From: Bacteroidales bacterium F22
Lineage (GTDB): Bacteria > Bacteroidota > Bacteroidia > Bacteroidales > Bacteroidaceae
Assembly: GCA_029541985.1 (NCBI GenBank)
Contig: CP095414.1
Span: 868,001-932,000 of the forward strand
Length of the DNA stretch: 64,000 nucleotides
Direction: 5' to 3'
Shown: piece after piece, positions 2,169 to 49,508 of the stretch
How positions within the stretch are numbered: position 1 is the first letter of the stretch
Layout: every line of letters starts with the position of its first letter
Notes under the pieces: model-generated
Seen by the model: only the letters and a program-made list of their open reading frames with translations
The model's database searches: none
What the model was told of the DNA's origin: nothing
Program-made: the position numbers and the translations under genes

Positions 2169-2540
2169 ACTTAATGGAAATGAAGCAGCGATGCTTTTCA
2201 CTATTGTGAAAATAAAGGGCTGTTTCTAAGGGCGTGTATGGACATGAGGTAAGGGCATGGTTCGTTTTGATTTTTGAGGGGCTAGAATGGGATTTATGAG
2301 GGGTTGATTCGCTTTTTGAACTGGAATTGCTAGTGCTTCAAAGGGTGTCTGAACAAGGACTTAAGACTTACTGCGGAAGAACTTCGTGTTCAAAAAAATG
2401 AATAGGAAGATTCTATGCGCTGACGAGGGGTCTTTAGTTATCGTTGGGTGGGGTCTTTATGTTAAAGGATAACACTCCTCCTATTCTATTGGTTGTCTAT
2501 TTAGCTTTATGTGGGCTTCATCTAGAGGTAATCCTTAATT
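2169..2540. repeat. Diverged intergenic element, copy A (~370 bp)
   Basis: The gene-free stretch between panE and proC contains a segment that aligns, nearly without gaps, to another gene-free stretch at 49136-49508 in the same orientation. Shared blocks occur in the same order and at almost the same spacing: ACTTAATG; a TTTTCAC-N4-GTGAAAA palindrome; ACTTAAG; ACTTCGTGTTC; CTGACGA; TGTTAAAGGATAACA; and AATCCTTAA at the end. The first ~50 and last ~190 bases are best conserved, and the middle is diverged. Stops occur in every frame, so it is not an obvious coding remnant. It could be a decayed mobile element, a dispersed non-coding repeat or a structured RNA; I do not recognise the family. Confidence 0.6.
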
Positions 2541-2613: not shown

Positions 2614-3390
2614 ATGAGAACAATCGCTATTATAGGAGCTGGAAATATGGGCGGGTCTATCGCTCGTGGTCTTTATATGAGTGCACTCGGAAAGCAGTAT
2701 CAACTGGTGGTTTGCAACCGGAGTCAGGAGAAGTTGACGGCACTAAAATCGGCCTTGCCGACTATCAAGACTTGTACGGATAATCAGGAGGCTATTGAGG
2801 ATGCGGATATCATCATCTTTGCGGTCAAGCCGTGGCTGATGGAGAAGGTCATCACTAATCTCAAAATCAAAAAAGAGGCCGTAGTCGCTTCTGTAGCTGC
2901 AGGTATCGCTACCCAGACTTTGGCATCGTGGACTTCTGAGGAACAACCAATCATCCGATTGATGCCGAATACGGCGATTTCTCTGTTTGAAAGTATCACC
3001 CTACTGGCTACATATCATACGACTCAAGAGCATGTGGACGAGATGCTGGCTTTGTTTGACGAATTGGGGGTGGCTATCCTTATCGAAGAGGAGAAGATGG
3101 GAGCAGCTACGGCATTGGCTTCTTGTGGTATCGCTTATGCGATGAAGTATATCCAAGCGTCTATGCAGGCGGGTATCGAGATGGGAATTCCTGCTAAACA
3201 AGCTCAAATGATGTCTGCTCAATGTGTCAAAGGGGCGGCGGCTTTGTTGCTCAAAGAGGAGAATCATCCGTCAGCTGAAATCGACAAGGTGACCACTCCT
3301 GGTGGATTAACTATCAAGGGGGTAAACGAATTGGATCATAGGGGGTTTTCTTCTGCAATTATCAAAGCGATACTTGCTTCTAATAAATAA
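2614..3390 (+). CDS. proC: Pyrroline-5-carboxylate reductase
   Basis: Catalyses the last step of proline synthesis, NAD(P)H-dependent reduction of pyrroline-5-carboxylate. The N-terminus has the dinucleotide motif 'IIGAGNMGGSIARGL', followed by 'IIFAVKP' and 'MPNTA' blocks typical of ProC. The C-terminus holds the family signature in the form 'TTPGGLTIKGVNEL', within the helical dimer domain that forms the active site. The length of 258 is slightly short for the family but no domain is missing. It is transcribed alone from its own -7 box, ending before two hairpins and a tRNA on the other strand. Confidence 0.93.
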   Translation: MRTIAIIGAGNMGGSIARGLYMSALGKQYQLVVCNRSQEKLTALKSALPTIKTCTDNQEAIEDADIIIFAVKPWLMEKVITNLKIKKEAVVASVAAGIATQTLASWTSEEQPIIRLMPNTAISLFESITLLATYHTTQEHVDEMLALFDELGVAILIEEEKMGAATALASCGIAYAMKYIQASMQAGIEMGIPAKQAQMMSAQCVKGAAALLLKEENHPSAEIDKVTTPGGLTIKGVNELDHRGFSSAIIKAILASNK

Positions 3391-3440: not shown

Positions 3441-3448
3441 GATAAAAG

Positions 3449-3520
3449 TTAGGCTATCAAGACTCGAACTTGAAATGACAGAACCAGAATCTGTAGTGTT
3501 ACCAATTACACCATAGCCCA
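3449..3520 (-). tRNA. tRNA-Gln (CUG anticodon)
   Basis: A full cloverleaf can be drawn on the minus strand. It has a 7-bp acceptor stem (TGGGCTA/TAGCCTA, one G-T wobble), a D arm with GTAATTGGTAAC, an anticodon stem ACAGA/TCTGT with loop TTCTGGT (anticodon CTG), a 4-base variable loop, and a T arm TCAAG-TTCGAGT-CTTGA. The discriminator is A and the CCA end is not encoded. The CUG anticodon reads CAG glutamine codons. It stands alone between proC and rsfS, with its own -7 box and terminator. Confidence 0.93.
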
Positions 3521-47386: not shown

Positions 47387-47411
47387 GAAACAACTATTAA
47401 ACTAAATGATT

Positions 47412-49106
47412 ATGTGCGGATTAGTTACCATTTTCGAAATTAAAGAGATGAGTCAAGAGTGGAGGTCAAAAACACTCAACATGAGTCGTAAGATACGACA
47501 CCGTGGACCGGATTGGTCAGGCATTTATTGTGGTAACTCAGCCATATTAGCCCATGAACGATTGGCCATTGTCGACCCCTTCTCAGGAAAACAACCCTTT
47601 GTGTCTTCAGACAAACGATTTGTGATGGCTGTCAACGGGGAGATCTACAACCATGCGGCCTTGCGTGAACGATATCAAGGGTCTTATGATTTTCAAACCC
47701 AATCGGACTGTGAAGTAATCATCCCCTTATTTCTCGACAAAGGTCCTGATTGTATCGAGGATTTGTCTGGTATCTTTGCTTTCTCAATCTATGACGTAGA
47801 AAATGACCGCTATTTCACCGCACGTGATGAGATGGGGGTCATTCCTTTATATATGGGTGAGGATGAAGATGGCACTCGCTATTTTGCGAGTGAACTAAAG
47901 GCACTTGAAGGATACTGTGAATCGTATGAGGTATTTCCTCCGGGATGCTATTTCGATAGTGAGACAAAGAAGATAACGAAATGGTACAAGCGTGCATGGC
48001 AAGACTATGATACCGTCAAAGATAATGTATCAGATGAGAAGGTATTGCGCGAGGCTCTTGAGAGTTCTGTGAAAAAACAACTGATGTCTGATGTCCCTTA
48101 TGGGGTATTACTCTCTGGAGGATTGGATAGTTCATTGATTAGCGCTATCACTCAGAAATATGCACAGATGCGTATCGAATCAAATGACACTGACGCTGCG
48201 TGGTGGCCTAGACTACACTCGTTCGCTGTCGGACTAGAGGGTTCACCTGACTTGGCCAAAGCAAAAGAAGTGGCAGATACCATCGGCACTGTACATCACG
48301 AAGTGACATTTACTGTCCAGGAAGGTATCGATGCCTTGTCTGATGTGATTTACCATATCGAGACTTATGATATCACTACCGTGAGAGCTTCTACTCCGAT
48401 GTTTCTCCTAGCGAGATATATCAAGAGTATGGGTATCAAGATGGTTCTTAGTGGCGAAGGAGCTGATGAATTATTTGGCGGATACCTGTATTTCCACAAG
48501 GCGCCCGACGCAAAGAGTTTCCACGATGAAACTGTGCGCAAATTGGACCGCCTATATATGTATGACTGCCTGAGAGCCAACAAATCACTCGCTGCATGGG
48601 GTATAGAGGGACGTGTACCATTTCTTGACAAAGAATTTATGGATACTGCGATGACACTTAATCCAAAAGACAAGATGTGTCCTGATAGCAAAATGGAGAA
48701 ACATATCTTGCGCCATGCCTTTGAGTCTTCAGAAACTGATGCTACTGAGGGCATCCTTCCTAACGATGTGCTATGGCGTCAGAAAGAACAGTTTAGTGAT
48801 GGAGTCGGTTACAACTGGATAGATTCCCTCAGAGACTATACAGAACAACAAGTTTCAGATAAGATGATGAAACGAGCAAAAGAAAAATTTCCAATCAACA
48901 CCCCTCAGAACAAAGAGGAATATTGCTATAGGACTATTTTTGCTAGCCACTTCCCAAGCAATAGTGCAGCGCTTACTGTGCCATCAGTTCCTTCAGTAGC
49001 TTGTTCTTCGGAGATTGCCCTCGAATGGGATGCTAAATTTAAAGAGATGAACGAGCCTTCGGGTCGTGCTATCTCTAGCGTACACAATGATGCGTATAGG
49101 AAGTAA
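47412..49106 (+). CDS. asnB: Asparagine synthetase B (glutamine-hydrolysing)
   Basis: Makes asparagine from aspartate, ATP and glutamine. I start at the second Met (MCGLVTIF), because the N-terminal Cys after Met removal is the glutaminase nucleophile; the Met two codons earlier would bury it. The glutaminase domain has 'RHRGPDWSGIY', 'AHERLAIVDP' and 'NGEIYNH'. The synthetase domain has the PP-loop 'LLSGGLDSSLISAI' and 'GIKMVLSGEGADELFGGY'. The length of 564 is normal. It is monocistronic, with a leader-peptide attenuator upstream and the dispersed element copy B downstream. Confidence 0.97.
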   Translation: MCGLVTIFEIKEMSQEWRSKTLNMSRKIRHRGPDWSGIYCGNSAILAHERLAIVDPFSGKQPFVSSDKRFVMAVNGEIYNHAALRERYQGSYDFQTQSDCEVIIPLFLDKGPDCIEDLSGIFAFSIYDVENDRYFTARDEMGVIPLYMGEDEDGTRYFASELKALEGYCESYEVFPPGCYFDSETKKITKWYKRAWQDYDTVKDNVSDEKVLREALESSVKKQLMSDVPYGVLLSGGLDSSLISAITQKYAQMRIESNDTDAAWWPRLHSFAVGLEGSPDLAKAKEVADTIGTVHHEVTFTVQEGIDALSDVIYHIETYDITTVRASTPMFLLARYIKSMGIKMVLSGEGADELFGGYLYFHKAPDAKSFHDETVRKLDRLYMYDCLRANKSLAAWGIEGRVPFLDKEFMDTAMTLNPKDKMCPDSKMEKHILRHAFESSETDATEGILPNDVLWRQKEQFSDGVGYNWIDSLRDYTEQQVSDKMMKRAKEKFPINTPQNKEEYCYRTIFASHFPSNSAALTVPSVPSVACSSEIALEWDAKFKEMNEPSGRAISSVHNDAYRK

Positions 49107-49135: not shown

Positions 49136-49508
49136 ACTTAATGCACCTTTTGGAATCTGCATTTTCACCATAGTGAAATAGCAGCGGCCAAAAGGTGCTT
49201 CTATCTCGAATGCTCCTTAGTACTGACTTCAAGCCAATGGTTTGATGCCCTGAAACAGCCTTTAAATGGCTCTTCATATTTTATTGCACAGATAGATACC
49301 TTATTGTGGAGTGTCGTTCCAGTAAGACTTAAGTCGTAGGACGGTTGCACTTCATGTTCCATTTATTGAACACGAAGACTTACCTCACTGACGACGGGAG
49401 AACTAGATACTGATGCAAAGGGTATCTTGTTAAATGATAACATCTCCTGACGAAAAAAGATAAATAGTTCATCAGTCAGTAACTGACGACAAGAGAGAAT
49501 CCTTAAAA
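49136..49508. repeat. Diverged intergenic element, copy B (~370 bp)
   Basis: This fills most of the 570-base gene-free stretch after asnB and is the partner of copy A at 2169-2540. Conserved blocks keep the same order and near-constant offset: ACTTAATG, TTTTCAC-N4-GTGAAAT, ACTTAAG, ACTTCATGTTC, CTGACGA, TGTTAAATGATAACA, AATCCTTAA. It has additional hairpins of its own: GCACCTTTTGG/CCAAAAGGTGC (49143-49153 with 49188-49198) and CTTCATGTTC/GAACACGAAG (one mismatch). Beyond 49508 the gap shows only A/T-rich DNA and the promoter of the next gene. Confidence 0.6.

Follow-up and report, generated by a model that had tools for sequence, protein, structure and literature searches.

Dispersed palindromic elements of fixed geometry in a Bacteroidaceae-like genome as possible nucleoprotein-assembly sites

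Two long intergenic gaps in the window analyzed here (64,000 nucleotides, positions 868,001 to 932,000 of contig CP095414.1 of Bacteroidales bacterium F22) raise the question of why the same parts should recur in the same order at two places among unrelated housekeeping genes. Copy A (2169-2540, plus strand) lies between panE/apbA (1129-2052, minus) and proC (2614-3390, plus), and copy B (49136-49508, plus strand) sits after an asparagine synthase gene (47406-49106, plus). A tRNA-Gln (ctg) gene is found at 3448-3520 (minus), just past proC and near copy A. The first-pass annotation had reported seven blocks shared by the two copies at a nearly constant offset, and we found all seven at the reported coordinates and in the reported order. 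Boxes 1 and 5 lie 265 bp apart in copy A and 266 bp apart in copy B, one net base of difference that bears out the constant offset, and the limits of the element agree as well, with a 5' ACTTAAT at 2169 and 49136 and a 3' AATCCTTAA at 2530 and 49498. The local alignment of the two copies scores 74, far above shuffled sequence (1,000 dinucleotide-preserving shuffles: mean 26, maximum 45).

A search with either copy by blastn gave a dozen more places in the genome, and the further copies that the first-pass annotation had proposed to look for proved to form a genome-wide family; the outcome named in advance as counting against the element, a lack of copies elsewhere, thus did not arise. A sequence-only profile built on 20 copies (R1) matches 24 full-length noncoding elements of ~370 bp in this 2.89-Mb Bacteroidaceae-like genome, with E values from 1e-55 to 1e-15; copies A and B are two of these (genome 870171-870532, E=5e-50, and 917137-917499, E=1e-52, respectively). 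Four of the 24, at 752, 1319, 2321, and 2145 kb, lie outside the training set of R1, and an earlier 15-copy profile recovered five unseen copies, none of which scored below 94 bits. Two further models, a structured one for the element core (R2) and one for a shorter class (R3), contribute 11 more places, one of which (395 kb, E=1e-13) was unseen in training, so that ~11 shorter or degenerate relatives bring the total to 35 sites. The short class is gapless, with the consensus ACTAAGACTTAAGTCTTACTTTGCTAACAACGGGGCTTAACAT-N-AGTAAGACTTAAGTCTTACTTTGGTAACGACGGGTCGTTAC, and is made of the same words as the long element. Its palindromic arrays, at 1010.6 (L124), 2682.9 (L125), 287.3 (L122), 172.7 (L121), and 1625.4 kb (L128) of the genome, have CTTAAG centers 44 bp (4 x 11) apart; they lie in between the 24 long copies and respect the same minimum distance. 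The array-like sequence GGTAACGATAGGTCGTTAC adjoins each of two 5-kb regions (L126/L127, 2500.8 kb; L129/L130, 2237.2 kb) that are 99.7% identical, lack long reading frames, and are probably rRNA operons. The weak R2 matches beside this repeat, at 2237 and 2501 kb, were counted as weak members only.

The family was found in no other searched genome and is private to one lineage. Under a strict filter, with only three to seven candidates scored per genome, there were no convincing relatives in the family (399 genomes), the order (198), or the phylum (248), where the best matches were partial and reached 19 to 27 bits. Plasmid and phage records contained no convincing relative of the element either, and a search of viral contigs with one 18-base word yielded nothing convincing. 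The host is the lone member of its genus among the genomes from the search for relatives, and the nearest named relatives of its ProC, from Bacteroides and Mediterranea, are 56% identical.

The anatomy of the family is most easily followed in the orientation of copy A, with the start of box 1 taken as 0. In most copies ACTTAAT stands ~25 bp ahead of box 1 (2169-2175, plus strand, in copy A). Box 1 is TTTTCAC-N4-GTGAAAA, centered at 8.5, with 60% Watson-Crick cells in the dyad scan against a mean of 27%; in copy A it is TTTTCACTATTGTGAAAA (2195-2212; genome 870195-870212), and in copy B (49162-49179) it lies within a longer imperfect palindrome, GCACCTTTTGG...CCAAAAGGTGC, detected as a 56-bp reverse self-match. 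A weakly conserved stretch containing GGCTTAAAATGGC and TTGAAC follows. The copy at 612.8 kb (L083) carries in this stretch an extra 20-bp near-perfect hairpin, AGAGTCCGTATAATCATTGT, that is absent from the other copies, and its total length is unchanged. Box 2, centered at 167.5, is the loop-free 18-bp palindrome GTAAGACTTAAGTCTTAC, represented by AGGACTTAAGACTTAC in copy A (2356-2371) and AAGACTTAAGTCGTAG in copy B (49324-49339). Box 3 is a hairpin, ACTTCGTGTTC/GAACACGAAGT, centered at 200.5; copy A has ACTTCGTGTTCAA with an imperfect inverted partner (2381-2410), and copy B has ACTTCATGTTC...TTGAACACGAAG (49349-49378). Box 4, GTAACGACGGGTCGTTAC in the family and centered at 233.5, is degenerate in both copy A (2420-2437) and copy B (49388-49405). 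Box 5, TGTTAA-N4-TAACA, is centered at 272 and reads TGTTAAAGGATAACA in copy A (2460-2474) and TGTTAAATGATAACA in copy B (49428-49442). The 3' end, AATC(C/T)TTAA, is conserved 70 to 80 bp beyond box 5 (2530-2538 and 49498-49506, plus strand).

These parts are held in a rigid arrangement. The distance between boxes 1 and 5 is 264 to 266 bp in 23 of the 24 copies and 257 bp in the remaining one. The dyad centers fall at 8.5, 167.5, 178.5, 200.5, 222.5 (weak), 233.5, and 272, and the inner ones are symmetric around 200.5, at 22 and 33 bp, with spacings of 11 bp or its multiples that define an 11-bp lattice. In single copies, long palindromes that are perfect or nearly so occur at differing lattice centers, examples being one of 21 bp (center 167.5), one of 20 bp (178.5), and one of 25 bp (200.5); template switching without selection could be the source of such hairpins in individual copies.

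The sequence itself has diverged enormously. Pairwise identity between copies averages 43.8% and reaches 51% at most, and the kinship of the copies is star-like, with no close pairs and no young copy. In the 152 least conserved columns identity is 27.8%, compared with 27.1% in unrelated flanks. Unconserved columns at random identity, combined with the retention of almost no insertions or deletions, are hard to square with neutral decay. A sequence free to drift within a geometry that is held points to selection on the geometry. The claim that the element is dispersed and shaped by constraint, not by random decay, is thus borne out by the 24 full-length copies, their saturated unconserved columns, and their fixed length.

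The copies also keep their distance from one another around the chromosome. Among the 24 the minimum gap is 36.2 kb and the mean gap is 120 kb (P about 3e-4); adding the six strong short-class members lowers the minimum to 31.8 kb (P about 9e-6), and for all 35 sites, weak members included, it is 32 kb (P about 7e-8). The outcome was similar under slot-based nulls, in which sites could fall only into slots as dense as the intergenic gaps that measure 300 bp or more, or 400 bp or more. Exhaustive scanning with the profile, of 384 kb and also of 380 kb within the largest gaps, where hidden copies had been expected, revealed no overlooked full-length copies; those gaps are real, because the 380 kb yielded only the known degenerate copy at 1506 kb. 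Such over-dispersion may be explained by selection for spread-out sites or by an old mobile element that was immune to insertion near its own copies. We also considered mirror symmetry about the position of dnaA, where four mirrored pairs fall within 1.5 kb (axis frequency, 0.004) and the two largest gaps are centered on 0 and on half the genome. This symmetry was rejected: it depends on the weak members and is lost when the 24 strong copies are taken by themselves, and GC skew places the replication axis near 1.9 to 2.0 and 0.3 Mb. In the 20-kb stretches sampled for GC skew, the sign changes near 1.9 to 2.0 Mb and at about 0.3 Mb, away from the dnaA gene at 0.4 kb; dnaA is probably not located at the replication origin in this genome.

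Several explanations have to be weighed against this combination of drift, rigid geometry, and spacing. A coding remnant was rejected, since every copy has at least two stops in each of the six frames (averaging 7 to 10), in keeping with the original report that no open frame is present. A family of small RNAs with a defined fold, or of regulatory leaders that are transcribed, would account for the fixed order of parts, the intergenic location, and the covariation of the hairpins: center 200.5 with boxes 4 and 5 shows 61 two-sided changes, compared with 37.5±4.7 in shuffles (none of 500 as high) and 23 to 36 in slid controls, and center 178.5 shows 33 cells, compared with 22.4±3.6 in shuffles. 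The hairpins at these two centers are, however, mutually exclusive and yet both covary, and box 2 leaves no room for a loop. The imperfect cells of the three main dyads comprise 49 G.T and 59 A.C, and this lack of a G.U excess, which RNA would favor, gives the palindromes the look of a DNA-level feature, even though the minor dyad at 178.5 leans to G.T (35 versus 19 A.C), which keeps the comparison short of decisive. Nor is the orientation of the copies to neighboring genes constant. Rfam at gathering score matched nothing in the window except a tRNA, and a permissive search of 12 loci placed on the elements only sub-threshold matches, mostly miRNA models over perfect hairpins, so that Rfam was uninformative and an RNA gene was set aside. 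About 0.9 kb from one copy, positions 2686-2883 (minus) of locus L097 give a sub-threshold match to the Bacteroides sRNA BTnc060 (96 bits, below the gathering score of 228.9). The evidence favors a symmetry of double-stranded DNA, whether binding sites or cruciforms, over one of RNA; the structured RNA that the first-pass annotation had offered as an option was not supported, and we regard any RNA-level function as improbable. We give slightly less credence still to control or termination elements of adjacent genes akin to REP/BIME. The palindromes are intergenic, and 9 of the 24 copies lie between convergent genes, often right after a stop codon. Ten others, however, lie between tandem genes and three or four, copy A among them, between divergent genes, a diversity of flanking pairs that argues against a single local regulatory role. 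Local control would also leave the 30-kb exclusion and the rigid 265-bp spacing unexplained. The orientation of the copies was unbiased with respect both to gene direction and to the direction of replication deduced from GC skew.

The main alternative is that the copies are relics of an old nonautonomous, MITE-like mobile element with target immunity near existing copies, later kept or slowly eroded. Mobility of this kind would suit a dispersed, intergenic, lineage-private family with star-like kinship and a conserved CTTAA-like motif at both ends, and insertion immunity would yield the minimum gap. Against it, the elements lack target duplications (direct repeats between the ends versus shuffled pairings, P=0.22), the end-to-end inverted similarity is marginal over shuffled pairings (P=0.049), and the flanking proteins that were read include no transposase next to a copy. 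Transposon ends were accordingly set aside, and the earlier statement that the element matches no known transposon stands, there being no target duplication, convincing terminal inverted repeat, or transposase frame. No copy is young, and the decay of 152 columns to random identity should have brought many length changes, whereas the spacing is fixed. We therefore consider a mobile relic unlikely, although distinctly more plausible than a role as RNA or in the control of adjacent genes.

Comparison with known systems sharpens what is peculiar to this family. The REP/BIME and ERIC repeats of enterobacteria are likewise dispersed, intergenic, palindromic, and present in many copies per genome, and REPs keep high sequence identity. 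The REP unit is described as 20 to 40 bp long (PMC3733652), whereas the elements here are ~370 bp long, contain several dyads at fixed spacing, are 44% identical, are not clustered, and are never less than 30 kb apart. The BrickBuilt elements of Porphyromonas gingivalis, described as MITEs with a tandem minisatellite, are another noncoding dispersed element of the Bacteroidales (PMC4596501). Unlike them, the elements described here show neither target duplications nor a tandem array of the minisatellite kind, and nothing at their ends amounts to a convincing inverted repeat.

Palindromes found genome-wide are also typical of NBS (Noc), SlmA sites, matS (MatP), and parS (ParB), all of which have a dedicated protein that binds them and are linked to the organization of the chromosome. 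Those are single sites of about 13 to 16 bp, whereas the elements here are 370-bp multidyad arrays whose binding role we infer. The arms of box 1, TTTCAC/GTGAAA, are those of parS with four extra bases between them; compared with parS itself (TGTTTCACGTGAAACA), box 1 has this 4-bp insertion and a variable C in the arm. Sampling of about 1.5 Mb turned up neither a parS with fewer than two mismatches nor a GERR-type ParB frame, and a ParB/parS system was rejected on this sample. Exact TTTCAC-N4-GTGAAA was confined to the elements in the same sample of about 1.5 Mb. The 11-bp lattice of repeated words recalls parC, the plasmid partition site whose 11-bp repeats are bound by ParR, but the units here are inverted palindromes, chromosomal, and present at more than 24 places.

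The explanation that we prefer, tentatively and with somewhat less than even confidence, is that the elements are dispersed DNA sites for nucleoprotein assembly, possibly for chromosome organization. Under this explanation, several palindromic dyads that bind protein or form cruciforms would keep a constant helical phase over about 370 bp, and proteins on the phased dyads would build one nucleoprotein complex per element. Dozens of such sites, at least ~30 kb apart, would probably act at the scale of the chromosome, for instance in nucleoid architecture, in topology, or in segregation, and not in the control of neighboring genes. Points against it are the unbiased orientation of the copies, the long hairpins of individual copies that template switching could have produced, the lack of the family in any relative searched, and the inclusion of weak members in the stronger over-dispersion figure, the 24 strong copies by themselves giving P about 3e-4. 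For the chromosome-scale role, it is the geometry, the spacing, and the lack of a common gene context that suggest this role. That the family constitutes a new architectural system, in which more than 30 multidyad scaffolds of fixed geometry, at least ~30 kb apart, would organize or segregate the chromosome of this lineage through complexes built by a presumed binding protein, is conceivable, if on balance rather unlikely.

Dispersed palindromic repeats in bacteria are usually seen as mobile debris or local terminators. The drifting sequence, fixed geometry, and chromosome-wide distance-keeping of this family point instead to a selected chromosome-scale role. Chromosome organization has, to our knowledge, been little studied in the Bacteroidales, and the ~35 concrete coordinates provided here can now be used for experiments on it.
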